Assembly: GCF_041381155.1 (NCBI RefSeq)
Contig: NC_091139.1
Coordinates: 8,990,383-9,054,382, forward strand
Length of the DNA stretch: 64,000 nt
Origin: Argopecten irradians
Lineage: Eukaryota; Mollusca; Bivalvia; Pectinida; Pectinidae
Direction: 5' to 3'
Position 1 is the stretch's first letter. Every line of letters starts with the position of its first letter. Position numbers and translations under genes: made by a program. Below are positions 17,530-64,000 of this stretch, piece by piece. A model generated the notes under the pieces. The model was not told the DNA's origin. It saw only the letters and a list, made by a program, of their open reading frames with translations, and made no database searches.

Positions 17530-19964
17530 TTATGATGCACTTCCCTTATGTCGTCTCCAGAATGTTTTGATAGTTTCCGTGACGTACTGGGTATGCTCTT
17601 CCTTAACAACGCCCCTCTTACTCCTAGAAACCAGAGCGTGAACAGCACGTGGTATGATTCCAACAACCAGAACGGAAATGACGTGCATGAGTCCCCCTAC
17701 ATCTGCCGATTTATTGTGTTTGGAGACTAAATATAGAGAGATGAACGCCAGAGCACAAATGAAAACAATCTGAACCAGTGAATAGCACATGGTTATGTAA
17801 ATAGGCTTCATGTAGCGAACAATTTCCTCAAAAAGTTGGCTGGGAATACCAGGACAATTATGAAGATATTTAACGTATTCATGATTGTCATTGGTCGTTA
17901 AAAATGGTATCTCGGATCCTTTCAGACTGATTTCGAAGCCGTTTAGATTGACACGATTCACTGAATGTAAGTTCATGTTAATATTTAGCGTTTCATTTTC
18001 AATATAAGCCTTGTTATCTTCTCGCAATTCTTGTTGCAATTTCAATGATATTTCGATGATTTGACGTAGTAAGCGTAAGTATCTCTCCCGAAATGACGTG
18101 ACGATTTCTGTAATGTAGTAAGCAGTTGTCCCAACAAAGAAAATGTAGGCAAATGAGTAGGAAGGGTATACTAGTATCGACAGATACACATATATACACA
18201 CATTAGCAACGAAAGTAGAACTATTGATGAAAATCAAGCTGAAAGCAAATATGAAACATGACATACACAATGTAACAAATATGCCTAGGACAGTACGAAG
18301 GGGTCTTCGCTGATTTCTGGCGCCACCAGAAACAGCTGCATAATACGCCTTGAGAGAAAGCAACAAGAAATGTATAACAGGTAGGCATTGTACACATACA
18401 ACAACGATAAGTTCAACAACACAAATACATATATACAAAACCAGCCCTAAACATTTGATGATGACAAGAGGAAACCTTGTGAAGCAAGGAAACCAGAAGA
18501 AATATTTTGAAACGCATAAACGCCATCTTTGTGTCTGCCAACACAGAAGCCAGAGCCACGTTTGTGGGTTGAACATCATAAACAATTTGGCTTGTATAAC
18601 TGTGCATACCTTAGTATAACCTGTGAACTGGGAACATTTTAACAAAGACAGTTGTTCGACAGCGTTCATGTTCATCTGCAGCAATGTAGACGACGGTTTC
18701 ATGTCTTCAAAAGAAGGTAAAACATTCTCCAAATGGAACGATAGCTTCTCTGGTATCACCAACAGGAAAACTCCTATAAGGAAATACAAGGATAACACCA
18801 TGAATGGTCCTCCAAGATAAGGCAAGAAGTTCCCACGGCTCTCTTGAACGCCTCCCAACATGGATAAGAATCCAATCGGTAATTTACGATCCAATGCTGC
18901 ATGAATAACATCGCCGAAGTACTTATTATACACAGCAAGTTTGATGTATATGACTACAGGCGAGAGAAACACAAACAGCAGACGTCGTAATCTTGAGGCT
19001 AAAACCGGAAATTTGTCAGATACTGTACAAAACGTAAACATATATTTAGAAAAACTGACTGGACCATTAGAGTTCAGAAACGTCCATTGCAATCCGTCAT
19101 TGACCATTCCGTGTTGTCCTTCCTCCTCTCCGGAAGTCGTCGTCTCGATTTCCCCGTAGTCCTTGTAGTGACGTGAGAGATGTAACCCGTCATACGTCTC
19201 CATACAGTGGGCAAAGCGCATTAAAAGTATTGGGAAGTAGGCGAATAGTACCGCTCCGAAAATAAAGGGAACCAATGTAGATTCTGTTGAATATGTCGAT
19301 ACGAAGTTGTTACAATGATAGTAAAATCGAAAAGTCCGTAGATTTTTCCTCTGCTTACAGCACTTGTAACCGACCGCAATTCCTGGAAATAGTAGGTGTC
19401 TTCCGATATTGTACAATGTTGAATTTTCAAATCCTTCAATTTCCGAATAATAACACCATATGCTATACTTCCTGTCCGCCTTGAAATAATGTGTTGTGAA
19501 ATTTAACATGGCTTCTGATATCAATTTTGAGTTATTTTTTGAGCCGAGTACCATTGGACAATCCGTTGAAGTCACATTTAGGTAAAGTTTGACCTCTTTA
19601 TGAAGCGAATGTCCATCCAAAAGGCCCAGAGAAAGTATATTAAAATCTATGGGCCATTTGGTGTAACGGAAGGATTCTTTACTCGAGACGTATGTCCAGA
19701 TAATCTTGCGCGGTAAAACAACATCTGAAGTATGGTTGATATGCGCAATGATTCCAGTATTGTTCACGAATTCCAGTTTGAGGTGAGCCAAGTTAGCATC
19801 CAGATTGGTGACCCAATCTGCGAAGTAAGCTGCAGAGTATGGTAAGATCTCGAGTTTACATGGAAGTGACGTTATTGGCATGTGTATCCGATGTCTTTCC
19901 TTCCGAGCGTAAGACAGAGATGGAAGAATCAGTACCACAAGGATACCAATAGTCACTTTAAAAC
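17530..19964 (-). CDS. Large multi-pass membrane protein, family not recognised
   Basis: One exon with an open frame of about 810 codons on the minus strand, ending TAA at 17530. The frame opens further up at a TTG (20004), but ttttaacag|GTTTTAAAGTG at 19965/19964 is a good acceptor entering in phase 1, so a short 5' exon carrying the ATG is likely and was not located. Numbering from 20004: a hydrophobic leader (17-33), a roughly 200-residue outer segment with several N-glycosylation sites and Cys (149, 184, 215-216, 231), then membrane segments near 244-266, 342-358, 398-417, 510-553 (probably two), 571-593, 598-632 (two), 736-760 and 771-791. The tail is basic (RSKRG, FWRRHKGSAS). Large loops lie at about 270-330 and 635-735. 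I cannot name the family; DC-STAMP-like proteins were considered and not supported. Being nearly intronless among intron-rich neighbours suggests an old retrocopy or an intron-poor lineage-specific family. Confidence 0.8.
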
Positions 19965-21230
19965 CTGTTAAAAGATAATTACTTTCAGATTTTGTTAAAT
20001 TCAAACAGGAAAGTCTAATAGTATAACCAAAAAGGTTCTTTGATTATAAAAAAGACATTCAACGATAGTATAGCTCACTTGGTAGTTACCCTTAAATACA
20101 CTTAACATTAAAATAAAAACTAAATACAGAAAGCTAGCAGTGAACTGTGCACATAAAATGTCATTAAAATTGTTGAAATGAAATGAAATGAAAAGAAAAT
20201 GAAAGAATTGAACAAATAACACCCCAAATATATTTACTATTGCTTTTCCCGTGTTTAATTAAATTTTGACAATTGTACAACCACATTAAGCATATCCTGA
20301 CTGTTTTATGATAAACCCACTGTCTCTATATCGGCCACCTTTTAGATTATAATGGCAAAATATTTTCTAGACAATTTTACAATATACATATGTACTCAAA
20401 GCATGTACATATAGTAGCGAAATTGGTGTCCAAATATTGTCAAAAGGAACAAAATAATATCACATAAACGCTTGTAAAATTGTTATATATGGAAATAATT
20501 CAATACTGCTTACAACGTATATCTTCATTGGCTAAAATGTTTGTTTTTTCGAGTCGATAAGCTGTTGACTCCAGAAAAAATTCGTTTCTGATTGACTTTT
20601 ACAACGACGTAAAGATTTCATAGAAAAAAGAGTCTCTCAGAATTGGAATTTGGAAGAGATTATCAATATCAGATTGAATAATAAAGATGATTTTCTGAGG
20701 ACACACAGTTTTGTATGTGTTATATATTCTTCTTTTACCTGACAAAACCTTTATAAAGGAAACCAAAAACAAGCACCCTATCTTATTTATAATACTAATA
20801 ATAACACAAACAGAATGAACCCTAAACAAATATAAAATGTGATACGTGCCTAGTGTCCAATGTAACATGTCGTCAGCTCGAGCGGCACACGGAAAATTGA
20901 AAATTAATTACTCTTGTCGAGGAAACAAAAGAAAATAAATGATATCAATGATAATTAATCCCTTTTGACATGTTCATTGAAAGATAGACCCTACAGGTAC
21001 GACACACAGGGAAACGCTAACAGTTTGATATAGTATCATCAAATATTTCAATATTGACATTCGTCATATTGAAATATTTCCTTTTACCGTACGTTGAAAG
21101 GTCGTATTTCTATACAAGATACCCTAATCGGGGAAGGAGTATGTATTTAGTCCGTTTGAGGAAGTATAAACTGTATACCGGCAGGTACACCGCATGACAC
21201 CAGGCTCCAGGATCAGAAAATAACCTCGAC

Positions 21231-24469: not shown

Positions 24470-25612
24470 ATAGTGAACATTAATCTTACAAATATTATTG
24501 TGTATCAATCTTTCAAATATTATTTTGTCTCTGTCTTGCATTTTACAAATATTGTGTCGTCCCCTTACACATTGTGTGCTTTCATCTTACAAATAGTGTC
24601 TATTAATCTTACAAACAATGTGATTTCATCTTACAAATATTTGTTTTTTTTAATTTTACAAACATTGTATCTTTATCTTACAAATAATGTTTATCAATCT
24701 TACAAATAATGTTATTTAATCTTACAAACATTGTGTCTTCATCTTACAAATAATGTCTATTAATCTTACAAACATAGTGTCTTCATCTTACAAACAATGA
24801 CTATCAATCTTACAAACATTGTGTATTGATCATACAAATAATGTTTATTGATCATACAAAGATTGACTGTGTATTGATATTACAAATATTGTGTATCAAT
24901 CCTCAAAATATCGTGCATTATTCTTACAACTATTGGGACTAAATCTTAGAAATATTGTGTCTTTATGTTTCAAATATTGTGCATTAATCTTACAAATATT
25001 TATTTTGTATTCATCTTACAAATATTGTGTTTTAATCACCCAAATATTTATTTTGTATTCATCTTACAAATATTGTGTATTAATCTCCCAAATATTGTAC
25101 ATATTAAATATTAATCATACAAATATTGTACATTAATCATAAACATATTGTGTAATAATTTTACAAATAGTGTGTATTAATCACCCAAATATTTATTTTA
25201 TATTCATCTTACAAATATTGTGTATTAATCTCCCAAATATTGTACATATTAAATATTAATCATACAAATATTGTGCATTAATCATAAACATATTGTGTAT
25301 AATCTTACAAATATGTGTATTAATCTACAAATTTGTTATTAATTGTCATTAATCATACAAAATTGTATTAATCTAAAATTGTATAATTTAAAATGTGTGT
25401 ATTAATCTCACAAACATTGTACATTAATCATACATTGTATATAATCTACAATATTGTATATTAAATATTGTGTATTAATCTACAAATGTTGTGTATTAAT
25501 CTCACAAACATTGTACATTAATCATACAAAATGTTACTATATATATCTTACAAATATTAATTTAATCTTACAAATATTACATCTTAATCTTACAGATATT
25601 GTCATTGTGAGC
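24470..25612. repeat. Degenerate minisatellite of about 20-22 bp (aatcttacaaatattgtgta)
   Basis: More than forty imperfect copies of a unit like ttaatcttacaaatattgtg tat. Variants replace ttacaaat by tcccaaat, atacaaat or ataaacat. A larger block (cacccaaatatttattttgt with its neighbours) is repeated around 25036 and 25180, showing duplication of groups of units. Frames through it are repeat artefacts. From 23907 to 24469 I see only AT-rich sequence. Confidence 0.85.
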
Positions 25613-27508: not shown

Positions 27509-30500
27509 ATGAGATGGCTTGGAGTGCTCCTCCTTGTGTTCAGCAAGGTAAATCATTGGAACATGAAATAGACTTTTTTTCTAGACATTTACTAATTATT
27601 TTATTCCATTTCATTTTCTATTTAATTGCAAGTCTGCTGTAACGATTTTGAAGAACTTTCTTTTCCATACAGATTGTTCTATTGTTGTTAAAAAACATAA
27701 GACAAATTTTAGTTATTAGTATCTATATGAGATGTCTCTTACACATATTATGCTTAATTTGATTAATGAAAATATTGACACAATTCTACACATGTATCTA
27801 ACACAGCGTGTACATGTAAGAAAACCCATGGTAGTCGTATTGAAATCCATTACAGATACTTCGTGTCATTGGCCTAATATTCCATAAAACACGATATGAT
27901 TTAAAGTTCCTTCCATATATATATGTATCACATTGATAATTTCATGATAGACTCAATCAATTATTTGGTACATAAAGATATATTCTACCAAATTTTAAAA
28001 ACCATCTTTGTTTGAACAGTACATTGTATATATACTTTACGACTTTTTAACTTGATATGCTACTCCCTGCGATAGACTTCATGCAGTGAGCTACTAATCA
28101 TGTTATGAACCCACAAACTAACATGACATTTGTAAATATTAATTTAAAATATATCTTTTCTAGGGGATGTAAATTCGTTGATTTTTGTGAAAAAACGAAA
28201 TCCACGAAAATTAAACCCCCACGAAAATTAATTATTTCACAGTAACACATGTCTATAAAGTTAACGTGTTTCGTTATTTCAGAACGTATCAGCAGTAACC
28301 CGGACACAGCAGGGTAAGTGTTGCTATGATTAACTGTTTTGGTTAATGCTGGCTGGATTTACTGTTTACTGTTATAAGCCATTACTTTAAGATTTATTGA
28401 GTTTTGTTACTACGATGTTATTGTTTATTACAATTATGTTATGTAATGCACACTTTCAGAATCGGATGGAGAATTTATAGAAATAACGATGAAGTAAACT
28501 CGGGATTATTTAATGTTTTAATACTCATGTAACATATGATGCTGTTTACAATCTTATTAATATTAGAGGGTAGTTTGACTATTCGATACACTCAAAGTAT
28601 TGCAACGTATCGAGGAGAACGGAAGTGGAGCGTAGGTACAAACGTATTCTTAGGTAGATTGCTGTTATTCACAAACAAACGAATAACAGTACAACAATGT
28701 TCTATACAGAACAAAAGAAAGACAACAATGACACTGTGAACGCCGCAATTTAAGTCGATACCGTCAAGATTGGAAATATTCTTATCAATTTGAGATTGGT
28801 GCCTAATATGAACTGTTTCGTGTATCAATGGGAAATGCAAAGTAAAATACCGTATAGCTGGTTCTTTTCGCGGATCAAAGTTTTCGCGATTTGATCTAAA
28901 AACGAGAGAATCATATATTAGGGATTAAGAGTTTTCGCGATATGGATTTAAAGGTAGATATCATTTAACCATTTCTCATAATTTCGCGGATCAAATTTTC
29001 CGATCATAGCAAAGTGCCGCGAAATTGCAAAAATATCATCCCCGCGGAAATAACCGGCTTTACGGTATACATAATTATGCAAACTGACCAGGGACGCTAA
29101 AAGGTTTTATTCGTTTATTACAGTCACATTCCTGTGTTTCGGTAACGATTCCGACAGCAGCCTTCTTCACTTTACCTTCAGGGTCTTGTCCAATCAGGAC
29201 CCTGTGATAGACCTCGTGCCATATGACGCCAGCGCTACCACCCTGGGCGTGGGTAAGAAAACCGGATGTACCTCCGTTAAGGGGGACGGTACGGCGTTCA
29301 GTCCCTTCGAGTTGACCATCACCATAGATACCGATGACCCTACATCTGTCATCAGTTTGACCAACACGTGTGGCATTCAGGAAGTATGGCTTGACTTCTG
29401 TAGCTTTTGTCATGATAATATGTTCATGGTTTGTGTAAGTTTGGTTTTAAATTGCTTTAAATATAAATATATATATATATATTTAATGCAAGTAAACAAT
29501 CTTACATTATATAGCAATTGTTAGGTAAATGTTTGCAACAGTATTATTTCATTTAAAATTATATTTAAAATATCTAAATTATCGTTATTTACAGATAACT
29601 GTTGAAACCCTATTTAAGTTTCGAATTCGGACCATTGGTGACCTTAAACTTGACCTTGGAACAGATGCCTACTACGATTGCCAATGCGATGTGGGAAATC
29701 TTCTAAGAGGTTGGCAAACGGTTGGTCCAGCTTTCGTTGTGTAAGTATATATACCACGGCTTGGATGCATTATGTCATAGATTGTTAAGGTTTGTAGCTG
29801 GTTGCTGGAACTAAAAAAACGAATTTTACTAATCAAAGAAGGAATCGCTCTTCGTGTACATTTCCTTATATCAATCATCTTTTGAATTTTTACGACTTAC
29901 AACAGCTTTCTAACTAATGGGTTGCTAGGGGTTTGACATCCCTGACGATACAGGAGGTCCGAGTAGGAGCTGCACTGAGACTTGTGGACAAGGCTACAGA
30001 CCTCCCCGTTTCTGTGGTGGAACTTGGTGCCGAGGTTTACCTCCAGGTGGTGTATAACCCTCAGACACAAGACAACAACGGTAAGGCTCTACAGTCCACA
30101 CAGAAAAATATCAATGGAAAGTGAAATTAAAAAATTATAAGAAATTTTATGACAGGAAAGACGAAGTATTTAGTAAACAGCCAACAAAATGAAATGAAGC
30201 GGAATTAATTACATATTCCGTCTTTGCATATTACAGAGTTAGCTCCCTTGCGGGTAAGTATCCATTGCGACGTCATTGGTTTTTTTTTTTGGGGGGGGAG
30301 GGCGCGGTTCACGTCGTTTTCTCCGAAAGCTATGACGTTACGCTCCCAAACACATGACGTCACAATCAATACCTACCGGCAGGGCCAGATAACTCTATAA
30401 TATGCACACACAGAATGGAAAGCATGACTGTATAGATTATGTGTCTTGGATACGGATGTGTCTTCTGATTCTGTTAATCATGGTTTTAGTTCCTTAACGA

Positions 30501-33500
30501 TTGTAAACAAACACATGCATAATAAGTACAAAAGCAAAAATTGGTTTGACGATGTTCATTTTATTTGTAACAGCATATGACTCATGTGGAACGTCGTTTT
30601 GGATAGTGTTTGACAGTTCATCACCACAGATAGTTCGAACATACGAATTTTACGTCATAAGTGCCACTCCACTGACGTCACATGTTTCTTTTTGGAACAG
30701 CAGCACGAGTAACGTAGTGGATTCCATAACAGTAGGTCCGTCTTCAGTCGCACGTGTAGATGTTCCTATCGAGATTGCGACGGGTACAGCACTGCTCGTC
30801 ACTGCGACCGAGAAAGTCTATCTCATGGCGTATATCTCCACCTCTGGGGCCAAGTCTATAGCGACAGTGTACCCCGCCGATACTCTAGGAGATGAATACT
30901 ATTTGTCTTCCGCAGATTTCGCCATAGTGATTACCAAGGAGGACGATACCAGAGTCGAAGTTACTTCGACAAGCTATCCTTTATTGATTGACGGTGTCAG
31001 TATATCTGGGGGGTATGTAACCCCTAATAACATAAACAAATTTGACGTCATTCATATTACTAGTAACAACAGTCTCTTGAGTACTATCATAACATCAACT
31101 AAACCAGTGGCTGTGTTTATGGGATTTGATACATCACTTTCCTCGAATAATTACAGAATTGAACAGGCTACAAGTCTACAGAAGTTAGGCACGTCCTTTA
31201 TAGTTCCCTCGGGGTTTGGAGACGTCCAATGTGTCGCTATACGTCCAGGAACAACCGATATATGGTTCCCGTCTAATCAGACGGGATCTTCTGATAACTT
31301 CATTCAGTTAAATCAGCATGGAACGCTTACTTTAACCACTGAAGACGCGTCTTTCATTGAAGTGAGGTCTAGTGAGGCGGTGCTGTGTACGAAATACTAC
31401 CGTGATTCTACTGTCACGTCAATACCACCCATACAACAGTGGTCGACCTTCTATGTGCTGGATGTCGACAGTGCTGACATTGGCTTAGCATTCATTTACA
31501 TCGTGATATTGAATGGAACTGAATCTGAATTACTGTTGAACCAGGAGAGGTTTACGGCACAGAGCACTGAAGTTCAGCATTTAATCTCAGGTAAAATACT
31601 TAATCGAAACTTGTAGCAGTTAGAATATTGAAAATTAAAATCATTAAAGCTATTCTTTTGACATCTTGACATTTTTGACATGTAAAATATGGTTGATAAG
31701 TATGAGAACGAGTAGATAAGTAACCAGACTAAATTCCAGTTTATAATATTTATTGCTTCTCTTTCGATGCGATTTTCCTGTAATGTGACGCAGTTCAGGT
31801 GTCATCAGTCTATAACTGAAACAACCTATATTTAATGTATATATAGAACACATATTGCATGAAAAGTGTGACCGGCTTAGTCAATCAGAAATCGGATGCT
31901 TTGGTTAATTATTGTACGCAATACGATATTTTTTTATTTATTAAAAGTAACATCTTAATAAATTAACTCTGATATATCATTGAATCTCCATATAACAAAG
32001 CAACAATTTGAAAGAAATTGATGAAATGTACAACGCGTTTGTTTTCAGACTCCAACGCTGAAGGTTTGGTTGCAATGAATGTCAGCCTTCCCGTCAACAT
32101 AGCTCTACCTGTGACAGTGTCCCATCCTTCACAGCCGTTTCTAGCCTTATTAGTACTTAACAATGGCTCGCAATTTATGGCTGCCACTGTGCTTCCGGGG
32201 ATTCATTTATCTGACCTGTTTCTCAATGGTGATGTAAGCTACTTCATAAAAACGACACACTATCTATAAAAGAAGACATTTGTACAATAGAATGCCATAA
32301 CGTGGTGCTCATCACTGCCACGATGAATCATTTCAACCGCCTTATATATATGAAAACATGATTTTTGAAATTCTGTATTGCGTTAAATGAAACGATTATC
32401 ATCTTTTATTTAATTAATTTGTCTACCAAAACTCCACCTGATGCTGTCAAATATTTTACGCTTGCCAGTGCTGTTGCTATCTATAATTTGATTCAAACAT
32501 ATTGGACATCACCATGTAAATACTGGACCGCCAAAGGTTATATACTGGGCTACGGTAGGCTAGGTCTGTGAGTTTTGTGTGGCATTTTACTCGAATCTCC
32601 GAGGTATCTGAGGTATCCGGTTGCCTTCTAAACAAAATTCCCTCTTGTGCTTCCAAGGTCATTATATTATAAATAATGACGAAATTGAAATTTGTTGTAA
32701 ATTGATCATTTCTTGTTAAGTTATTTCTAAATACACTAGTTTTGATATCATAACTTACAGATAGAAGATCATGCATGGATTTCTTTGTGGTGTGAAGTTT
32801 ATCAAACGAATTTAATCATTTGATATGGCACGAGCTTTAGGCGAGTGCCATGTCAAACTATTTAACGAATTTTCTAAAATTTCATATCACATAGTCACGA
32901 GTGTAAGATTCTGTTTATCACATAAGTTTATTAATAAAAATTTAAGTAAAAAAATCGTCTCTATATAAAAATAGTAAAAATCAGGCTTGGATATAACGTT
33001 TACTGGGATAATCATGCAACGTCATATATAGATTATGTCTTCAAAACTACTTGTGACGTCGTAATAGTGTTATTACACGTGTGTCTTACGATAGTTGTGA
33101 CATAGTCGTATGACATGGTTGGACGAGCCAGTTATGCGACAAAGTCAATTATACTTATTATTTTCTAGTCACTCAATAAACAATTGCTTTTCAGTACAAG
33201 ATTCTAGTCAATGAAAATGTGAAAATGAGACTGATTATTTATGTTTTTAGCCGTGGTGTTCCCAGACATCGGGCTATAGGGGTGATTTAGTAGATAATGA
33301 CTGTGACGGCTGGGTAGATGAGGAGACGGAATCAGACACTGGTAAATATGTACAGAATCTACTAATAACTCCCTAAAAGCATGCCACCGGAGCTGCCGTT
33401 TAGGCGCTTAATTTTTACTTGAAGCATTTAAAATATCGTATTGATTTATAGAGGAGTTAGGAAGAATAATGATTTTTTTTTTAATCGGCGTTATTTCCAT

Positions 33501-35818
33501 TGTAGTTTTAGTCGATGTAATTTTTTCATATTCATTTGATATTTTTCATGAGTTTGAATATTGACATGCATTGATTTCTAAAGTGAAGATGAACTAATAA
33601 TTTTTTTTTATCACCAGGTAATCCTTATCCTGACTTACCGGCAACCCTGATAGGTAATGTTGCTTTATATTTTTATCCTACGCGAAACGCTTTTGCGGGG
33701 AATATTGTTTTGGGCTCCGTCCGTCCGTTCGTCCGAGATGATTTTCCGGGCTATAACTCCTAAACCGTTTAACGTAGCTCTATGACACTTTCTGAATATG
33801 TCAAACAAGTACCGTAGTTGTGCCTTTTGCTATTTTGGACATTCCATTTTGGGAAGTTTTCCGTTACCATGGAAACTTAGTAAAAAATACCAAATGACTG
33901 TTTCTTTTTGTTTCCGGACTATAACTCCAAAACCGTTTAACGCAGCTCCATGAAAATGTCTATATAAGACAAGTGTTGTGCCCTTGTTGTTCCTTTTGCT
34001 AATGCGGACCTTCAATTTTTGAATTTTTTTTCTGTTACCATGGAAATTTGGTCAAAAATACTTAAGTACATTTTCTTTTTGTTATCTGCTGTTATTTCTT
34101 TTTGCAGTTTTACAATACTATTTACATACATTTAAAGATATACTTGAATAGTTGTTACTTTGACCTTGTTGTATTTGGGTTTCATTCCAACTGCCGGGCG
34201 CGGGAGATAATGCCAAGCTGTGTGGCTCCATGTTTCTTTACATTTTGATATATATTGATGACATGAGAATAAATAGAGGATATACCTTGTTTCTTGATAA
34301 ATACTAGTTATATTTCATCGAGTGAGGTTGAAACTTTGATATTTATTTTTTTTTTTAAAGTTTCCACCTCACGAGTATTTATTAAGATGCCATGTAAATG
34401 TCTGTGTAATAACGTGATCTTGTATTTAGATAACCTCCACCCAGTGCGAGTAAGGCCAGTTGAGTGTGTTGCTAAACCTAACGACGTCTGGTTGGACGAG
34501 GACATATCAAAGATGATTATACAAACATCTGGGTATGTTGTAAAGAATAAATTTTCTGCAAGTAATTTTCAATAAAGAACTGTCCCATTAAAAAATAGAA
34601 AACATGCTAAATAATGTTGATTTAGTAGAAAACTGTTTTTTATCAGTATTTTTTTTTGCATATTATAAAGTTATCTGGCATTGTGAGTATGTATTGATTA
34701 TGACGTCATGTGTTTGAGATCGTAACGCCATATTTTGTAGTGAAAACGGCGTTTGATTTGCTCAGAAAATAATGACCTAACGATTTATAATTCCTTATCA
34801 TGCAAAGACATAATACTACATCCAGAAGATGATTTTGATAAATCGTTAATTTTATCACGTGACTTAGATGCCTACCCACCGGACGTGATGTCTCACCATT
34901 TACTCCATCGTCAACATTTAATATGACCAGTGACCAAGCACCCTTTCCAGTCGTATACAACACCGGAAGTTTCTATATGCCTCGATTTGAAAATCAAGCG
35001 GATGTATATATGAGATGCAGACTAGAGTTTTGTTTTCATTCTGACGACAGTTCATGTACAACGGTAAATACATTAATTTTCAACTGTTAACAGAGAAATG
35101 CAATAAGCTTTTGGATTTATATTGTTGAAATTGATAATTATTAAAAACAATAATTGTGCAGTTTTTTTTAATTTCATGCCTTGGTTTAGAATTGCGTTTC
35201 GCGTATATAGAGTTAAGATTTCAACCATAGAACTTTTTTCTCTTAGTTTTTTGAATGTGTTGTTGAATGTTTTAAGAATAGGGTAAAAGAAATGTTTTCG
35301 AAAAAGGATTATTGGTTTTTTTTTATATAGGATTTATGTCAGGGTAGAAGGCGCCGTAATGCAGACAGTGATTCTGGCTCCCAGGTTATAGGACTACACG
35401 TCACCGTTACCGGGAAACAACTAAATAAATCTGGTATTCCATCAGGTAATTAATATGTCGTTAATCCATGTACTAACCATGTTTTCTAGCTTTAAAACAT
35501 TTATTCAAAATCAACTCTCAACTTTATGTGATTTGTTCAGTCTTGCGCTGATTAATAACAAACTAAAGGAAACTTATTTATGAAAAAATACAATTCGACA
35601 ATGTCGTGTTTATGTATGTTGACAACATCGTTTGCATTACCGTTTAACCGGCCATTAACTGTGTTATTGTTGCAGACTCGGCTGACTCCGTCCAGGAATA
35701 TTGTTTAGAGGACAGACGATTTCTAGGCGTGATTGGTGTTCTTGGCTTCCTGACTCTAACGGCGCTATCGATAACTTTGTATCTTTACTGTAGAGTTCAA
35801 AGACGATATAAACAGTAA
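27509..35818 (+). CDS. ZP-domain membrane protein with an IgGFc-binding block inside ZP-C, 854 aa
   Basis: Thirteen exons join in frame: 27509-27547, 28283-28313, 29124-29434, 29595-29740, 29929-30080, 30574-31590, 32049-32233, 33251-33341, 33618-33653, 34430-34532, 34868-35063, 35331-35445 and 35676-35818 (TAA). Exon 1 is a signal peptide start (MRWLGVLLLVFSK). Exons 3-5 carry a ZP-N-like part (FELTITI, TCGIQ, ITVETLFKFRIRTIGD, AYYDCQC) and the first strand of ZP-C (VVELGAEVYLQVV). Exon 6 (residues about 227-565) is an IgGFc-binding N-terminal domain, starting YDSCGTSFWIVFDSSSP. Exon 8 has the calcium-loop motif DNDCDGWVDEE. Exons 10-12 continue ZP-C: VRVRPVECVAKPND, GCLPTG, ADVYMRCRLEFCF, C..C, then a furin-type site GRRRRN. 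Exon 13 has a transmembrane helix and a short basic tail. ZP modules polymerise at cell surfaces or matrix after furin-type cleavage, and IgGFc-binding domains occur in mucus proteins; the combined role is inferred. Exon phases match the minus-strand paralog. Confidence 0.8.
28848..29069. mobile_element. MITE-like palindromic element (taccgtatagc ends)
   Basis: Left end taccgtatagctggttcttt and right end aaataaccggctttacggta are inverted repeats, with ttcgcgg and cgcgaa motifs inside. It lies in intron 2 of the ZP-IgGFc gene, about 55 bp before exon 3. Related ends occur at 17145-17360. Confidence 0.65.
30225..30406. mobile_element. CRE-bearing MITE, copy 3, in the intron before the IgGFc exon
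   Basis: Ends tgcatattacagagttagct and agataactctataatatgca are inverted, with TGACGTCA at 30355-30362 and gcgacgtcat near 30269. A T-run then G-run (about 30280-30300) sits inside. It lies in the intron that joins the ZP-C first strand to the inserted block. Confidence 0.8.
30574..33653 (+). other. Four-exon IgGFc/calcium-loop block within the ZP gene
   Basis: Exons 30574-31590 (1017 nt), 32049-32233 (185), 33251-33341 (91) and 33618-33653 (36) sum to 1329 nt, exactly 443 codons, and are phase 1 at both outer edges. They encode the IgGFc-binding domain, a beta-rich extension (DSNAEGLVAMNVSLPVNIAL...), PWCSQTSGYRGDLVDNDCDG with WVDEE, and the linker GNPYPDLPATLI. Splicing exon 5 (30080) straight to exon 10 (34430) would restore an uninterrupted ZP-C. 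The block could be a fixed domain insertion, an alternative cassette, or the exons of a nested gene. No separate signal peptide exon or promoter for it was found. Confidence 0.7.
33690..34065. repeat. Two-copy repeat with ctataactcc(a/t)aaaccgttt
   Basis: Two copies about 168 bp apart (from 33746 and 33914) share ctataactccaaaaccgttt followed by aacgcagctc, then ccttttgct and ccgttaccatggaaa. A ccgtccgtccgttcgtcc stretch precedes them. It lies in intron 9 of the ZP-IgGFc gene and looks like a dispersed molluscan repeat; non-coding. Confidence 0.65.
34657..34804. mobile_element. CRE-bearing MITE, copy 4, in the intron after exon 10
   Basis: Ends tgcatattataaagttatct and the worn taattccttatcatgca, with TGACGTCA at 34701-34708 and the shared ttgctcagaaaataatgacc. 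The right arm has lost its second CRE. It ends about 60 bp before the next ZP-C exon. Confidence 0.7.
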
Positions 35819-36641: not shown

Positions 36642-39600
36642 TTAGAAGTATGAGGTTGCCATCCCGGTATTAATTCTAGGGTATATTAATGTTGGTCTTT
36701 TTATCCGTCGTTCACGCGTTAAACCTTTCAATTGTCTTACAAGGTAGGCGATGACAAGCCCATCCAGGAAAAGAATAAAGAAAACAGTACCAGCCACGGC
36801 AGCGAACATCCACGTCACAAAACAATTAGGTGATTCTTCTAGATCTAAACAAAAAGATTTATTATGATACATATAATAGTTTTAGATATGCTGTCAATAT
36901 GAAAAGATACAATGTTTTCTAAAGAGACATGGAAAACTGTACACATATGACCATATGAATTCGAAATCACATGACTTCAAAGCAGTAAAGCTTTTTTTAA
37001 TGCTTCTATCATATCAGATACACTCGTATTAGGCCAAGGAATTCCTTAACTTGACATTCTCAATAGGAAAGCGTTATAGAACTCAAGAGGAGTTATTTAG
37101 CTAAAGTTTTCCCTTTTAAAGTCAATGCCTTTCTACCGGGGAACTTTTTTTTTCTTCATATGAGTCGAATTATTTTTTATTAAAATTAAGTTGTCCACAT
37201 ATTCAAACGCTTAGGTCATAAATAGAGAATGATATATCACACATATAAAAACAATCAACATTACAACTGTAGTATTACCCGAATACCATCTATACGGGTA
37301 CCTTGAGAATTTAATGTATCTAAAAATATGATGACTCAACTACAATTACCACAAGAGATCCCAGAGGGATATTGGGACCACCATAGAATTGTCTGTCAGA
37401 TAAGGGAAAGAAAGGTCTTTTCTCTGTCTTTCTCTTCCTTGTTTATCAATTAAATCATTTTAAAACGTGGTAAAACTACATTTAAAAGATAACTCTGAAA
37501 ACATCAAAATGTCCGTCCGTATGTAAGATTATTTTTCGATTACAGTACTAACGAGGAACTTTATTTTATAGGGATTTCCTATTAATTAGGACTATTGATG
37601 AAAATGGTGCTTGGTATGATAAGTAATAATAGGACTATTGGTAAAATATTTGTCCTCATGGTATTTAAAAGTGTATTCTCGATGATGAAATAGTAAGTAA
37701 TCTTACTAATGGGAAACTGAAAAGTTATTGAAAAAATAGTGATTTTTTGTTGTCTTTTTGAATAATTTATAGGGACTATTTCTTATCACTTTGAACATGG
37801 CTGTTCAGGGTATATGGCTGAAGGAGGTAATTCAAATTTTAACTGGCATCTAATGTATGTTTTACACTGAAATATAACAAGTTAGATGCAAATATAACAA
37901 TAAAAGGATTGTTAGATTGCAATTATTGGAGATATGAATGCAATCTGAATGTCAGATAAATGTTCATAGCATACAAAAGGTCGCTATTCTATTTATCTGC
38001 CACCCAGATTGCATTTACATCTCCAAAGATTGCAATCTAACAATCCTTGAATTCTGAATGAAACATATTTTCTAGGCAATTCCAGGCTAATGTAACGCGT
38101 TGTTCATTACTGTAAACCAACGTTCTTTCGCGTGCGTTTTATTTTCGCGAATTTCGCGATCCAAATAAATTCACGAAAGTTTATCTCCGCAAACGTCCAT
38201 CTACATCATTGATAGTGATAGGAATGTCCAGTTAACTTTTAAAATCCGCGAATGTTAATCTTCTTGAATTTGTTTTGAAATGAAAATCGTGAAATCAAGT
38301 AGCCGCGAAAGAACGTTAGTTTACAGTAAATTTATTTCTATCAATAAAAAAGAAACAAATGATTACTACCTGTGTTATTGATATGTGTGCTGACGTCCTG
38401 TGGCTGGTATACATTTATTTTAGTCGAGGTTCGCACTTCCACCACTCCGTCTGCTGAGCGCTTCTGACGGGGCATGCACATATCCTGGAAAGGATAAAAG
38501 TTATCATCACAAACTGCCTCTATATTCTCCTACAAAAATAAATCTAGAATACACTTTCATCGAAATTGTTAGTATCTAATGTTATACAACTCACCGTGAA
38601 GCACGAACCTGATGATGACGTACAGTATTCAATGGTGACTATAAAGTTAACTTCAAAAGAGTCAGCAAATCGTCCTATTTCAAATACTGGTGAAAAGGCT
38701 ATAAAAGGTGACGATCCGTTGGATTCTGTGGTAAATGGTCCCGATAGTGCTAATGCCTTTTCTGTATAATTAACAGCACATCTGAAACAATTATAATGCC
38801 AAATTAAATATTTTGGCATTGAAAAGACTGAACGATTTAAAAAAAAGTGACGATTTAAAAAAAAGTGACAGGACATCAAAGAGTTTGCCGTCCAAATTTG
38901 GTATATCAGTTTGTCATGTCAAAGGGAATGTGGTGGGGTGGAATATCGCTTATTACGAATAATATTTCAAACATAAGGTAAATTGAAAAATATAACATAC
39001 TTGTGATGATATTAATCCTAAATTGACATTTGAAGAAAAATGTAACGAAATGAAACGCCTGTGGCTAAAGAAGTATATGCTTCAATTTACTGTCTTCTTA
39101 ATAAATACTTGTCTGCAGTACCACTGTCATTAGAGAGGACTTCAGAAATACACTTACCACGACCGCGCTCATTTTATTATTGATCTTACAGGGATTAATG
39201 ATGTTCCTTCGTCGACAGAGCATAAACGATACTCATCATTTGAACAGTAATTGGTGTTTAATCATGGATATATGTCTAATTTACACAAACTGAATATAAA
39301 ATAATATATTTTGCTTTTGGAACATGCGCAGATAGTACTTCATTCTCTATAGGGCATAGTGTCACAGATGTATTTTGGGACGCAATAAATCATTTTTAAT
39401 ATTTTTATCTTGAAGTAAAATTAGAACCTCAAACTGTTCAATGGTAGTAATGGTATAAAGTAAGAAACTTTGTAATATGTTTTTGATAGTTGAAAAAAAT
39501 CGTTTGGCAGCGGTGGAAAATCGTTAAATGGTAAATATAATTTGATAAAAAAAGGGGTGTCATACCAGCGCCTGTCTAAAATAAATATAACTATGAATAA

Positions 39601-42600
39601 ACAATAAAATTATTTCAATTACACATACGTATCAGTGGACGATGTAAAAAAGATAAGGTGAAGCAAAAATAATTCACCCATTTTCGTCGATCATAGTCCG
39701 TCTTATTGGTTGAAATGTATCCGAGGGGGAACATATCAGATTTGTTAGTCGTACACCAAGGACGTCGATGTTTTCTGGAAGGAAAGGTAACCATTGAAAC
39801 AGCTTCTAACGCTCTGTTATTGAAAAGCATAGTGGCGTGCATGTATTCATATTTTGGTCAGTTTCATATTGTATAAGGACAACAAATTCACGAAGGTATT
39901 ATAGTGCAATGCCATTATGTGATGCTCTATATTTGAATACAAAATAAATACGAACCCAATAATGCCCTAGGATTAGTACCGTATGGGGATCTTAAATTTA
40001 ATTTCGTGAGATGTAGTGGTTTTATATGCACACGAGGCTTTTGGTATGGCGAGGAACCTGGTGTTGGCTATGAACTAATTATTTAACAATTAAAGCTTTT
40101 TATCGAGTTTTATGAACATTTAAGAGATGTATTTGAAACATTATTTTACATTTGGATTGTTAAAGACAAAAATACCCACCGACAGCACTCGTAAAAGTCA
40201 TGGTGAATTTGAACCGCACAAGGTCACCCAGGTAGGCTAAAAATACAGGACTGTTGGTATCTATGGAGACTATCTCCAATAATGTGCTCCTAGAACTGGT
40301 TAGATTCAGCAGGTCCACACTTCTGGAATAAACGTTACATATCTACCTAGATAATGTAAGGATAAAAGTGCATACTAATTATACAGCCATGCCTCCTTTT
40401 GCTCATAAAGATAACGTTTAGTAGAAACAAATAGACATGTAAAAGGTGTGAAATTTCAAAAGAAAAAAAAACCCACACTTATTACAAATTTTTGGTTACA
40501 ATTCAGTGCAACTGCATGCATTAAAAACTTTTTTGTAAAAACAGATTTTCGCTGGTAAAACTTTTCCCCTATTTATTTAGTCGTATATTAATATTTTTAT
40601 TGTCATGAAACATGCCGGTACTCTTTAAATGTAAATCTCAGTGAATTCTGCCATGACCTTATAATCAATCGTTCTACCGACAATGATAAACCATTCCTTC
40701 ACTCCCCACCTCATAACCAATCCAGCTAAAATATCCAGATGTGACATTGCTCCTTCATCTGGCACGATAAATCAACAACGGAGTTACTTACCCGACACTT
40801 ATACCGGAAGTTGATACCCATGGACTGATAACTCTTGTTGGATCACATTTGAACTCATACAGTCTATCTGTATAAGAAACTAGACCACTGCTAGCCTCAG
40901 AACGAATCTTAAGCTGGTACCACCCGTCTGTGGTCTGGGAAAAATAATAGGAAATAAATATTGTGATTACAAAACACAATTAACAACTCAAAAACAAATA
41001 AATTGTCCCATTTTGATCATTTTCCGACGCATTAATTTTGAAATAAACACATGTATGAACATGTATAAAACGTATGTCGGAATTCTGATGCATACTGTCA
41101 GAAAACTGCTGTTAAAGTCAATGACTGGTTAGGGCCTATTTCATTTTCATCACAACAATTTTAGGTCGTTAGTTTGTAAACGTTAAAACCACTTACAATA
41201 GTCATACCACATGGTGACGACGGGAACGTTTGGGTGCCATTAAAAAAAGTCATTCGTAATTTGTAAGTCAAACCGCCATCATCACTGGTTCCTGCACAGT
41301 TAGGAAGCTCATTTGCATATACTGACGTCACGATATCATATTTCCTGTCCAGTATAAAATCTACATGTATAACACTGCTGTTTTGATGATCTTCTAAACA
41401 CAGGAAACTGGCTGTTAACAAAATAAGATAAATACATTATATTACTTTCCGCGGTTTGGATTGGTATATTATAATTACGTCCTATTAATAGCCGGGGTCA
41501 TCAAGGATGGTCTATCGTGTATGTGTTGTTGTGTGTCTGTGCAGTGCGAGGTGCTGGAGTGAAAGACTATGGTATATCCCTGTCGTGTCTTTTTGTATAG
41601 TGGTACTCTTATCCTTTTTTATAGTGCTATATAACCAAAGCATACCGTCGAGGACGGCAAGGAACATACCCCATATAAACATGATTTACTATTACTTAAA
41701 CTAATCGATAGTGTTAATTGTTATAATTGTAAAAGAACAGGGAAAATACATAGAAATTCCTGTCGAGTGTCAAGACCAGGAATCGAACCCGGGTCCCCGG
41801 GTAATAGAGACGATATTTAGCACTGTACAAATTACACCAAACCGCTCCTTTTACACAACTTTATTGTTCACCCATAGTTGTTTTTTCCTGATCTCGTTTA
41901 TGAAACAACATTGTGCATTTTGTATAATGTGAGTTTTAAAATATATATGCTAGATAAATACCACAAGCATAAGATACAAAACACAAATTATTTAATTTCT
42001 TACATTTCGGATATTGAACCATGAAAGGTTGGTGGAGGACGTGTGAATTATATGTATTTATTCTAGCCCTTGGCAATGTCGATCAATCAAAGCGACATTG
42101 ACAGGTAAACTACGTGAAGCGGATGGTCTCACATACTTTATATACGTTAAATCAAAGTTGATTATTTAGAAAACATGTGAATATGAGAAAACCATCCAAA
42201 ACAGAAACCGTGATAGCAACACATGATAAACCCTAAAGTACAGCTGACTTACACGCCCTTCAATGCTCTCTTTAAACATGTACCTCAATTTAAATTCTGA
42301 TATTTAGTTTGTTAAAGCGATAGCAGTTAATGCATTCAGGATGATAAAAATGATTAGTGTCAATCAAAATCAAAATTGACGTTTTCTGTTATTAAATATT
42401 CATTGCAAGCCATAACAACAAAAGTCTTTTGAGAAGTCTTGGGTAAACATGACTAGTTATTTATAAGAAACCTCTCTATGAATCACTTATGTTGTGTACT
42501 TTAACTGTACCCTATGCATGTAGTTAGGAATACAACTCCCAACAGTCTCTATTGACTAATTTAGCCTTTATAATCACAAAAACTCCACTCAGGTTGGTAT

Positions 42601-44697
42601 TTTAAGTACCCAAACTCTCATAGCCAGCACATTCATTACTAAAATATATAATATTTTTTTTATCTGACTAAAGTATAAATTGTTAGTATATCTCCGTTCC
42701 ATAGAGGATCTGACAACATACATTTGGGGTCACGATTTAATACCTTTTTACTCCCAGTATTCATTTCATATGCCTGTTCCGTTCCATGGACGAAAATTAT
42801 ATAAAAAAAATATAAATTATCCACGACATCATTTTTGCTTGATATCGATGTTATTAAAAACATCAAATGCGATGATGTTGTGTATCATTCTCCTAAAACA
42901 TATTAAACTCTATACTCGATTTTACATATTTTGAAGACCAGAATATACTATGGTACGTTCATCTTTTGAGAATCATTCACATAAGCTCTAAAAACAACAG
43001 TTAAGAATTTTCTCCAAAAATATGGTTTATTTACATTTACATATCAATATATATATATTCAATTTTACAAAGACCACAGTATCATATTTTTGTTTTAATT
43101 ATCATTCACACAAGCTGTTAAACTAATGTTAACCAAAGGAAGCACGTTGATGAGGATCAACATCCGTCCGATGTGATGTCAGACCAGACTTATTCAGTGC
43201 TTCGGTTTGCCTAGGATAAACTTCAACTGGTACTTTTCTCTGGATTAATTTTTACGTAGATATGAAGTTTGGTCACATAGAAGACATAGAACACTAACTC
43301 TGTGATTTCAGTTTGGTATTTTATGTTGTTCTTATGAGGTTAACGAGAAACATCCACACATCTAATTCTACTATTTTGATTTTAATTTTGAATAAAGTTT
43401 TCGTAGACTGACACTATCCTGTGAATGTTTTATTCAGCTAACCATATGCACCATGTCAATATCCAACATGTCTCATAGAATATATATTAATACCTTGCGA
43501 GTATTATTCTTCAACCGCATAATTAAAATATTGTTATACAAACTATATCAATTATGCATTCAGCACTCTCAGCAAAGATCAAAATGCAGGCAACCCAAAT
43601 GAATCGTAAGGATATGTTATACTGTAAAAATAACAACTGAATAATAAAATAGTCCATCACATTCAAATAAAATAATGGTATTACGGTTGAATTTCCTTTA
43701 ATGACAATCTAAAATATCAAATTACACATGTAGGTTTGCAGTTGACAAATTGCTTTCAGATGTTTGTGTGACAGCCAGGGCGTTCCTGGGAAATTCACAC
43801 TTCACTTACAAAACTCTCATCCTCTTATAATAGTGTGCACTTAATTACCTTTTAAATTTTATTATTGTAAAATCCATGATACAGACTGATTTTCAAATGT
43901 CAGGCATTCTTTTTGCGCTGAATAATCGACAGAAAATACACTAGGTATGATACAATTTATTATCTAAAATCATTAGATATTTCAAGTTTGAAATTCACTT
44001 TCAGTTTTGAATATCAGAAGTACGTGTGGTGAAAAAAAATCCGTGGATGTTTCTTTTCAACTTACAGTATTCTGTATTTATATATTACATAGTTATCTAC
44101 CCTTGTGGGTTGGGTAGCTATTAATGGTGACGTCATGTGATTGCAAGCATAAGGTCAGAAAAGACGTGAATTGCGCTCAGAAAATAATGACGTCACAAAT
44201 ACCTAGGTGAATCTGTAATATGCAAAACATATTGTCTACAACTTTTAAAATGACAAAATGCTCCTGAATTTTGAATCAAGGAACATACATTAAAAACTGT
44301 ATTTTATTTCAAATAGTTATTATATTTCAGGCATAGTTTTAATTAAGAAATAAAAATGAAATCGACGTATTCATTAAATTTTGCTCTCAAAGCCAAACTA
44401 TAAAATGTTCAAGGCGTTAAATCAAAGTTTCCTGTTATTGTTGTGAACCCGACGATTATCGGCTTTATTGTTAAATAACTTATTTATATTTTCTAACTGT
44501 AGAGCAAAGTGAAATTATAAAACATAAATTATATAAATCATTGATAATATGTTCCTTAAAGATCTACTACCTTTCCGGAGTAAAACATCATCATTGGTAA
44601 CATCAGAAAATATATACCGATGACATAAGCTGAGGTTAAAACACCAAACAAATGCAAGAATTCCTGCGTAATACATGATTGTACAGTGGAGAGTCAT
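36642..44697 (-). CDS. ZP-domain membrane protein, 409 aa, paralog of the plus-strand gene
   Basis: Eight minus-strand exons in continuous phase: 44697-44571, 41411-41197, 40934-40792, 40322-40180, 39774-39678, 38781-38595, 38484-38370 and 36844-36642 (TAA), 1230 nt in all. Exon 1 gives a signal peptide (MYYAGILAFVWCFNLSLC within its first 25 residues). Exons 2-4 form a ZP-N-like part (LTYKLRMTFFNGT, SPCGMTI, TDGWYQLKIRS, RLYEFKC) and start ZP-C (LGDLVRFKFTMTF). Exons 5-6 complete it (IDVLGVRLTNLICSPSD, MIDENGCAVNY, FEVNFIVTIEYC, GSCFT). Exon 7 begins DMCMPRQKRSAD, a furin-type site, and exon 8 carries a transmembrane helix (TWMFAAVAGTVFFILFLDGL) and a basic tail. Six introns match the plus-strand gene in place and phase, but this gene lacks the IgGFc block. 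It is probably a secreted or cell-surface polymerising protein. The first intron (3.2 kb) is the least certain join. Confidence 0.8.
38108..38338. mobile_element. MITE-like palindromic element (tactgtaaacc ends), intact-looking
   Basis: Left end tactgtaaaccaacgttctt and right end aagaacgttagtttacagta are near-perfect inverted repeats, with ttcgcgaatttcgcg and its mirror inside. It lies in the last intron of the 409-aa ZP gene and is the best preserved copy of its family here. Confidence 0.75.
41465..41815. repeat. tRNA-derived SINE fragments
   Basis: About 41477-41510 reads cgtcctattaatagccgggg followed by tcatcaagga, the body motif also seen near 53261. About 41768-41815 has gaatcgaacccgggtc, the reverse of a T-arm, then caaattacaccaaaccgctc. 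Both are short, worn pieces in the first intron of the 409-aa ZP gene. The rest of that intron (41816-44080) is AT-rich with no gene recognised. Confidence 0.4.
44081..44224. mobile_element. CRE-bearing MITE, copy 5, in ZP gene intron 1
   Basis: Ends tatattacatagttatcta and gtgaatctgtaatatgca as worn inverted repeats, with two CREs, TGACGTCA at 44128-44135 and 44188-44195, and the shared gacgtgaattgcgctcag core. It lies about 350 bp from the 3' end of the signal-peptide exon. Confidence 0.8.
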
Positions 44698-45665
44698 TTC
44701 GCCGTTTTGGCGCTGTGAAAGTCAACTACCGCGCGGAATTTAGGACACGGCGGGTAACATAACACGTAATGAAAATTAACATTTTATTAATTTAATCAAA
44801 TTTTTCAGAAAGTGAAAATACGTGTAGTAGTAACGGTGAGCTACTCTAGAAAATTATCGATCTCGTTTTTCATTACCATTTTAAAAATTAATAGCCGTTT
44901 CGGGAAGGTAGTGGGCCTTTAATCAATCATTGGTATCTTGCATTATAAGTAATAATGCGTTTTATACAAAGTTAGTATTTTTAGATATTATTTGCTCTGA
45001 AATGAAAAAAAAATAAATAAGAATAACTAGATGTTTAGTAACATTTTGTAGGATACTATTAAGTCTACTGATTAGAACTAATTATAGCAAACCCCTTCAT
45101 ATTTTTACTTCTGAAAAGTCCTCATACACTATTGACAAAGCAGTTACAGGTTACACTATAGTGTTACCTATCTGTGTGGCTTCCTGTGACGCAGCAGGAA
45201 GTATTGTCTGTAACGAAAGCAAAATTACATTAGGTTAAATTGTAAATTATATGAATATAATATATGATAGGTGACATATAATATTTTTAATATGAGATAT
45301 TCTTATTTAGGTTCATACATCATGTAGTAAACAATAAGACAATAGTAATGTTTCTTACAAATACTTCCTACATTTCTACAGGTTTTTCACTGTCATACTA
45401 TAAATCGGAGGAAGTCATAGATTTCCGATTTAAAAGCATCGAGTCGACATAACTAATATGATAGAAATTAACGATAAAAGAATTTTATATGTAGAAGACA
45501 CTTTTCAATCGTTTTTGATAAGTTGTCTTTGTAAATTAGATGTGTAAAATATTCAACTTACCACAGACAACAAAACGAAAAGACAAAGCGAAGAAATCAA
45601 CTACAAGAAAAAACAAGAATAAAAAAAGATAAAATAATGAGAAAAACAGTGTTTAAGAATATAAA

Positions 45666-45825
45666 ATCAGTTGTCAGTCATTGCGGGTAAGCATTGATTT
45701 TGACGTCAAATATTTGCCAGTGCGACGTCATATTTTTAAGAGAAAAAGACGTGAATTGCACTCACAAAATAATGACGTCACAATCGATACCTTCCCACAG
45801 GGAGATAACTATGTAATATTCAAAG
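45666..45825. mobile_element. CRE-bearing MITE, copy 6, upstream of the 409-aa ZP gene
   Basis: Two full CREs, TGACGTCA at 45701-45708 and 45773-45780, flank the family core aaaagacgtgaattgcactc. The left terminal arm is worn and the right ends gggagataactatgtaatat. It is about 1 kb upstream of the minus-strand ZP start, so it could act on that promoter; this is inference. Confidence 0.75.
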
Positions 45826-63640: not shown

Positions 63641-64000
63641 TTGTGTCTCAGTTACTATCTGGAAAAGACTATAAGTAAAGTATAGAATGTATTGTGTTTC
63701 AGTTGCTCTCTGGAAAAGACTATAGGATCCATACTATATAATGTATAGAATGTATTGTGTTTCAGTTGCTATCTGGAAAAGACTATTAGATCCATACTAT
63801 ATAATGTATAGAATGTATTGTGTTTCAGTTGCTATCTGGAAAAGACTATTAGATCCATACTATATAATGTATAGAATGTATTGTGTTTCAGTTGCTATCT
63901 GGAAAAGACTATAGGATCCATACTATATAATGTATAGAATGTATTGTGTTTCAGTTGCTATCTGGAAAAGACTATTAGATCCATACTATATAATGCATAG
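63641..64000 (+). repeat. 63-bp array repeating the GGCX exon 13 acceptor
   Basis: Six acceptor copies fall at 63651, 63702, 63765, 63828, 63891 and 63954; the last five are exactly 63 bp apart. Each unit reads tgtattgtgtttcag then ttgctatctggaaaagacta with ttagatcc or taggatcc. The post-acceptor sequence decodes as L-L-S-G-K-D-Y in the phase left by exon 12. In units with tatagg the frame goes on as R-I-H-T-I before a stop; in the tattag units it stops at once. The functional exon is presumably the last unit, beyond the window. From 63447 to 63640 is ordinary intron. Confidence 0.88.

Follow-up and report, generated by a model that had tools for sequence, protein, structure and literature searches.

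Exons for an IgGFc_binding domain within the zona pellucida C region of a probable fusion gene in Argopecten irradians

Two ZP-like paralogs on opposite strands

Zona pellucida (ZP) proteins build egg coats, the inner-ear matrix, urinary filaments, and cuticles. The 64,000-nucleotide (nt) stretch of Argopecten irradians DNA analyzed here, referred to as the window, carries on its plus strand a gene (27509-35818) whose product looks, to judge from the predicted protein, like a filament-forming matrix protein, and in which exons encoding an IgGFc_binding domain lie between two exons encoding adjoining strands of the ZP-C subdomain. The gene comprises 13 exons separated by GT-AG introns and joined in an 854-codon open frame, and a paralog devoid of the inserted exons is located on the minus strand. 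The exon ends of both genes were placed manually, guided by open frames, GT/AG signals, and, for each gene, the layout of the other, so that the agreement of phases between them is not a blind one. The features of both genes are as follows.

27509..27547, plus strand: exon 1, start codon and hydrophobic signal-peptide-like core MRWLGVLLLVFSK; GT donor, open frame
28283..28313, plus strand: exon 2, ending in phase 1
29124..29434, plus strand: exon 3, ZP-N-like first half, phase 1 to 0; pairs with minus 41411-41197, Z 4.9 versus shuffles
29595..29740, plus strand: exon 4, ZP-N-like second half and linker, phase 0 to 2; pairs with minus 40934-40792, Z 7.1
29929..30080, plus strand: exon 5, ZP-C strands A and B, phase 2 to 1; contributes to the PF00100 match
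30574..31590, plus strand: exon 6 (insert), most of the IgGFc_binding domain, phase 1 to 1, 339 codons; PF17517, 69.0 bits
32049..32233, plus strand: exon 7 (insert), end of the IgGFc_binding domain, phase 1 to 0; gain in the PF17517 match
33251..33341, plus strand: exon 8 (insert), DNDCDGWVDEE metal-binding-like loop, phase 0 to 1; PF11617 below cut-off
33618..33653, plus strand: exon 9 (insert, tentative), 12-amino-acid linker, phase 1 to 1; splice-score rank 10 of 3611
34430..34532, plus strand: exon 10, ZP-C strand C with Cys5, phase 1 to 2; PF00100; pairs with minus 39774-39678, Z 4.3
34868..35063, plus strand: exon 11, remainder of ZP-C with Cys6, xRF motif, Cys7, CysA and CysB; PF00100; pairs with minus 38781-38595, Z 4.8
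35331..35445, plus strand: exon 12, Cys8, RRRR basic cleavage-like site and hydrophobic patch; pairs with minus 38484-38370 (RQKR), Z 3.8
35676..35818, plus strand: exon 13, transmembrane-like segment, short tail and stop; pairs with minus 36844-36642, Z 2.8
36642..45207, minus strand: paralog without the insert, 8 exons, 380 amino acids as rebuilt
41411-41197, 40934-40792, 40322-40180, 39774-39678, 38781-38595, 38484-38370 and 36844-36642, minus strand: paired exons of the paralog, hand-placed

Seven minus-strand exons pair one-to-one with exons 3, 4, 5, 10, 11, 12, and 13, and the junction phases are equal at all six shared junctions (0, 2, 1, 2, 0, 1). The alignment of each of the seven pairs scores above its shuffle mean (2000 shuffles each; Z 2.1-7.1, p 0.0005-0.028), with an overall identity of 27% between the paralogs. 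The pairing of exon 5 with minus 40322-40180 is weak when taken alone (Z 2.1, p 0.028), while its order and phase agree. At the corresponding junction of the paralog, 40180/39774, strands betaB and betaC are joined in phase 1 without any insert, just as the initial annotation had described; the 409 amino acids that it gave for the paralog are not recovered, since the eight rebuilt exons yield 380. A scan for a signal-peptide first exon of this paralog found none. In minus exon 38781-38595 Val replaces the expected Cys7 and Cys5 is kept, so a core ZP-C disulfide seems to have been lost there.

The inserted exons 6-9 (30574-33653) amount to 1329 nt, or 443 codons, with both outer edges in phase 1, and a direct join of exon 5 to exon 10 leaves 411 amino acids in frame; these lengths and phases, together with the 854 residues of the full product, reproduce those initially reported. 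The exon 5 donor is GTAAGG, and the exon ends in phase 1, as previously stated, although its end reads NPQTQDNN+G and is longer than the sequence then written, and the inner junction between exons 7 and 8 is corrected here to phase 0. Within the insert, exon 6, exons 7 and 8 together, and exon 9 constitute three phase 1-1 units. Intron 9 contains, at 33743-34083, a 168-base unit in tandem duplicate.

The inserted block and its place in ZP-C

In the Pfam scan, the full protein matches the IgGFc_binding family PF17517 with an E value of 6.3e-19. Exon 6 alone reaches 69.0 bits and exons 6-7 together 71.2 bits, against a cut-off of 25.6, and because the addition of exon 7 extends the match from profile position 254 to 277, so that both exons cover positions 5-277 of 297, exon 7 is assigned to the domain in spite of its poor splice sites. 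The match begins at residue 99 of the block, whose N-terminal sequence is SCGTSFW. In bacteria, the same family exceeds the cut-off in 45 of 198 Bacteroidota genomes, and in 11 of the 12 bacterial sequences inspected a GxEFW-like motif, G-x-[ED]-F-[WY], follows the signal-peptide region. Moreover, a profile of 30 bacterial proteins, which were chosen by similarity to the insert, aligns from its position 26 onwards to block residues 4-330. Since the block opens with SCGTSFW and its bacterial homologs open with GxEFW-like sequences, exon 6 appears to start near the natural N-terminus of the domain. The block also carries six N-glycosylation sequons, which fits a secreted domain. As for the calcium loop that had been proposed in the block, a DNDCDG-type loop is indeed present in exon 8 (DNDCDGWVDEE), but the label calcium is weak, since the sole match, to PF11617 (Cu-binding_MopE), stays below its cut-off (E 0.06-0.15; 12.8-14 bits versus 27).

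Searches for relatives of the insert beyond Pfam gave no confirmed match. For exon 6 there were no pattern matches in viral contigs or plasmids, and none of the 21 found in genome contigs was confirmed; likewise, none of the 60 pattern matches of the bacterial IgGFc alignment in viral contigs was confirmed, and NCBIfam returned no match. Immunoglobulin G (IgG) is not known in molluscs, so that in a mollusc the name of the domain would be uninformative about its ligand; a glycan, a mucus component, or a microbe would be our guess.

The individual exons of the insert differ in their support. Among 3611 open candidate readings, exon 6 ranks 4th by splice score, exon 9 10th, exon 8 26th, and exon 7 274th. 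The in-frame codon scores are 0.37, 0.36, 0.52, and 0.50 bits per codon for exons 6, 7, 8, and 9, respectively, and random windows of 61 intron codons, from which stops were not cleared, have a mean of -0.55 and a 99th percentile of -0.07, a yardstick that is fair for exons 6 and 7 only, exons 8 and 9 being short. The codon use of exons 6 and 7 clearly resembles that of the ZP exons. A wrong frame of exon 9 also attains 0.34 bits per codon, and a competing phase 1-1 candidate of 33 nt (34361-34393) reaches 13.2, compared with 13.7 for exon 9.

The location of the insert within ZP-C, already claimed in the initial annotation, is supported both by profile coordinates and by hand placement on uromodulin. 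With the insert in place, the ZP-C profile PF00100 is matched at positions 47-133 with 20.7 bits, under the cut-off of 24.6, and upon its removal at positions 26-133 with 28.6 bits, above that cut-off, the insert splitting the profile near position 46. A gapless hand count back from Cys5 places the insertion point approximately between G493 and G494 of uromodulin, in the betaB-betaC loop, the numbering having been anchored by a uromodulin fragment that matched the solved uromodulin chains exactly. The insert would thus lie at the edge of a filament contact, as uromodulin L491 and F499 are listed in the interface A patch of ZP-C (PMC7486124). Uromodulin assembly involves the departure of strand A from ZP-C and the loss of the C-terminal propeptide (PMC7486124). 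Both of these elements, as well as the linker and strand G, which also move upon filament formation, are outside the insert.

Downstream of the insert, six cysteines at residues 682, 705, 754, 759, 767, and 772 fit the ZP-C pattern; the names Cys 5, 6, 7, 8, A, and B were given by pattern following PMC7456536. They are followed by a GRRRR site, a SQVIGLHVTV hydrophobic patch, and the membrane segment FLGVIGVLGFLTLTALSITLYLY, an order that was read by eye. The region upstream is designated ZP-N-like on the basis of its position and its cysteines.

Origin of the insert and competing explanations

Taken together, the sequence features make it probable that the plus-strand gene encodes a spliced fusion of ZP and IgGFc_binding domains. 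Its product would be a membrane-bound, ZP-module-like precursor with a signal peptide, a ZP-N-like region, ZP-C, a cleavage-like site, a hydrophobic patch, and a transmembrane segment, into which the IgGFc_binding domain and its metal-loop-like tail would be spliced at the B-C loop of ZP-C. If exons 6-9 are included in the mRNA, the inserted domain would most likely fold by itself and hang from the B-C loop as the sole side domain of the precursor, and cleavage at RRRR would allow the ZP core to polymerize with the domain displayed as a side group, comparable to the N-terminal arms of uromodulin. The DNA is compatible equally well with a constant fusion and with an alternative cassette.

Regarding its origin, exon shuffling of a phase 1-1 domain into a pre-existing phase-1 intron is well supported. 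The initial annotation had proposed such an entry into a symmetrical intron, and the proposal agrees with both the empty phase-1 intron of the paralog, which would have retained the intron without the domain, and the start of the block near that of the domain. Because members of the family usually have an uninterrupted ZP-C, the insert is taken to be the derived condition.

Copies of a short repeat with inverted ends of about 30 nt occur at 30215-30416, 11351-11531, 34657-34815, 44069-44188, and 45686-45825, and those in introns 5 and 10 of the plus-strand gene are oppositely oriented. The inverted repeat 30311-30406/34657-34752 was considered as the vehicle of the insertion and rejected, as exon 10 lies between its arms and the element recurs in the window.

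Several results weigh against a ZP/IgGFc fusion. The case for membership in the ZP family depends on a ZP-C match that is itself marginal, on the layout, and on the cleavage and membrane features. Neither gene has a Pfam ZP-N match, although whether the profile library includes a ZP-N model sensitive to members this diverged was not checked. For the minus paralog, the Pfam scan returned nothing up to an E value of 10. The two paralogs also stay unlinked in a tblastn search with an E limit of 1; the same search detected the block nowhere else in the window, the matching intron of the paralog included, and, given its blindness to paralogs sharing 27% identity, an equally diverged remnant of the block could escape it. 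The gain of the PF00100 match upon joining exons 5 and 10, at first considered strong evidence, was downgraded to moderate by a shuffle control in which the joined ZP-C fragment with the real exon 5 gave 31.6 bits, the best of 10, and nine shuffled versions gave 24.3-31.1; one of them reached 31.1 and the others 24.3-28.5, so the gain is not decisive. Since shuffles score this close, the profile by itself is no proof that exon 5 belongs to ZP-C, and the paralog carries much of the argument. In addition, the acceptor of exon 5 is weak by splice score (rank 111 of 412), exon 7 has the poorest splice sites of the insert exons (donor 0.8, rank 156 of 546), and exon 9 has the least independent support, the frame remaining open without it. 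The insert contains five cysteines, an odd number, and the AlphaFold model of exon 6 alone has a predicted local distance difference test score (pLDDT) of 38.8, with a plausible beta sandwich for the first ~80 residues alone. PDB sequence searches with the 411-residue form, the 443-residue block, the joined ZP-C, and a two-paralog profile returned no ZP or IgGFc relative. By eye, the FXF motif, which is conserved in the ef loop of ZP-C (PMC7737619), is half kept, lacking its first F in both the plus-strand (MPRF) and the minus-strand (IGRF) proteins, and for this reason the plus-strand protein is not filed as a proven polymerizing ZP protein. The insertion loop, flanked by uromodulin L491 and F499, is itself a further concern, as an insert there may hinder assembly.

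The first competing explanation, which overlaps with the fusion, is a splicing switch, and we regard it as possible although on balance unlikely. Exons 6-9 would form a cassette giving rise to a plain form of 411 residues, with the main role in polymerization, and to the 854-residue form. Both products are in frame, exon 6, exons 7 and 8, and exon 9 are each phase 1-1, and the plain form exceeds the ZP-C cut-off and the full form does not; moreover, the exon 5 donor scores well, as 6th of 546, and so does the exon 10 acceptor, as 6th of 412, although both sites were part of the matrix training set. However, such a switch requires the joint skipping of four exons across 4.35 kb.

The second one, also overlapping with the fusion and somewhat less likely than the switch, is a blocked ZP module, in which the domain sits at the interface and stops polymerization, so that the product would serve as a membrane-bound or shed receptor or as a filament cap. 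The interface A residues that flank the loop and the missing first F of the FXF motif are in keeping with it, whereas the retention of the cleavage-like site, the hydrophobic patch, and the transmembrane segment is not, and the short linkers at both sides of the insert may let the domain swing away. Besides decorating a filament, the insert could thus obstruct it or alter its shape, a point that goes beyond the initial annotation. A combination of both ideas, a splice-switched ZP-C in which a whole domain in the B-C loop next to the filament interface distinguishes a plain subunit from a domain-bearing or polymer-capping one, is considered about as doubtful as the blocked module.

A less probable alternative places the IgGFc exons in another mRNA, either nested or sharing the ZP signal exons and promoter, with the ZP message splicing exon 5 directly to exon 10. 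Joins of exon 2 to exon 6 and of exon 9 to exon 13 are frame compatible in phase 1, and a soluble or membrane-bound IgGFc product could result from them. A loose test that counted, in each intron, signal-peptide first-exon candidates able to join in phase 1 found 2, 9, and 2 of them in introns 1, 2, and 9 and none in introns 5-8; those of introns 1 and 2 count against the fusion. The nested gene that the initial annotation had named as its refuting case is therefore unlikely to start inside intron 5 but may start in intron 1 or 2. The frame of exon 6 is open upstream to an in-frame ATG at 30552, but this sole upstream ATG gives MFILFVTA, which is the translated pyrimidine tract of the acceptor. 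At the other end, exon 9 reads through to a stop ending at 33763 and one poly-A-like hexamer follows at 34268, but such hexamers occur about 3 times per kb in the window, so that one in 1.1 kb is no signal. Furthermore, a nested gene need not show phase-1 outer edges matching the ZP exons. Finally, an assembly error that misjoined a fragment of an IgGFc gene into the ZP intron is very improbable, as all four exons share the strand of the ZP gene, are bordered by GT-AG sites, and fit it in outer phase, with the block starting near a domain boundary, an arrangement seldom expected from a random join.

Should the ZP/IgGFc fusion be real, such a large intron-guided insertion in ZP-C would reveal a loop that tolerates cargo, exemplify intra-domain exon shuffling cleanly, as a neighboring paralog preserves the empty site, and make it possible to test whether and how filament interfaces accommodate cargo or refuse it. 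By itself, it leaves the known chemistry of ZP assembly unchanged.

Elsewhere in the window, an 837-codon open frame on the minus strand (17530-20043) looks membrane-spanning by eye and has no Pfam match at E up to 10. On the plus strand, an open frame at 59444-59761 contains the end of an HTTM domain (PF05090, E 7e-18), hence being part of another gene, and 15255-15584 shows a weak PAN-domain match below cut-off (E 0.006). Large minisatellites are located at 13037-14482 (unit of ~39 bases), 24543-25343 (~22/44), 46777-48166 (~32/94), and 63676-64000 (~63), the last one extending to the end of the window.

Comparison with known systems

Searches of an open-access library, mostly at the level of article listings, yielded no paper describing a ZP protein with an IgGFc domain; subscription papers and protein databases were outside these searches, and an annotated ortholog of the ZP/IgGFc gene may well exist. 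In the accessible text of the IgGFc papers searched for both terms, zona pellucida appears only as the ligand of zonadhesin and in references. Within the available portions of the respective articles, PF17517 annotates a single, strongly changed gene of a mussel, a zona pellucida transcript, likewise from a mussel, is named without IgGFc (PMC3144882), and lineage-specific insertions are mentioned, without details, for arthropod egg-coat proteins (PMC13361971).

Molluscan proteins annotated as IgGFc-binding have been described in oyster (PMC6337334), abalone (PMC6003135), snail (PMC4023409), and clam (PMC7430831) as secreted, mucus, shell, or immune-responsive components. In abalone and snail shell proteins, the annotation occurs together with chitin-binding domains (PMC6003135, PMC4023409), and the IgGFc-binding protein of the Manila clam is among the genes that change upon challenge with lipopolysaccharide and peptidoglycan (PMC7430831). 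However, the domains stated in the available parts of these articles are vWF-D, EGF, chitin-binding, Sushi, and lectin-like ones, not ZP, and PF17517 is not stated there.

FCGBP combines an IgGFc domain with vWF-D repeats. The latter are not matched by the plus-strand protein, as vWF-D is absent from its Pfam scan at E up to 1. The Bacteroidota IgGFc_binding proteins share the domain with the insert, the bacterial one starting with the GxEFW-like motif in 11 of the 12 inspected, but they are large bacterial proteins. To our knowledge, the extra domains of well-known ZP proteins lie outside the Ig-like subdomains, which is consistent with the papers on uromodulin.

Uromodulin and GP2 resemble the plus-strand gene in being ZP precursors with extra domains, and uromodulin also has a cleavage site and hydrophobic patches; however, the arms of uromodulin are N-terminal to the ZP module, whereas the plus-strand protein has little if anything between its signal peptide and ZP-N, and its extra domain would be inside ZP-C. 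Lineage-specific additions to ZP-C are known from the ZP-C subdomain of ZP3 and from the AB-loop expansion of fish VE alpha/beta, although these are cysteine-bearing expansions, in contrast to the 443-residue foreign domain placed here in the BC loop (PMC7456536). A large loop insertion in an Ig-like ZP subdomain is likewise found in CUTL-9 of C. elegans, where it occupies the DE loop of the other subdomain, ZP-N, and is presented in the available text without a known domain or an intron-phase origin (PMC7456536), whereas the insert of the plus-strand gene carries a recognizable IgGFc_binding domain and is bounded by phase-1 introns.

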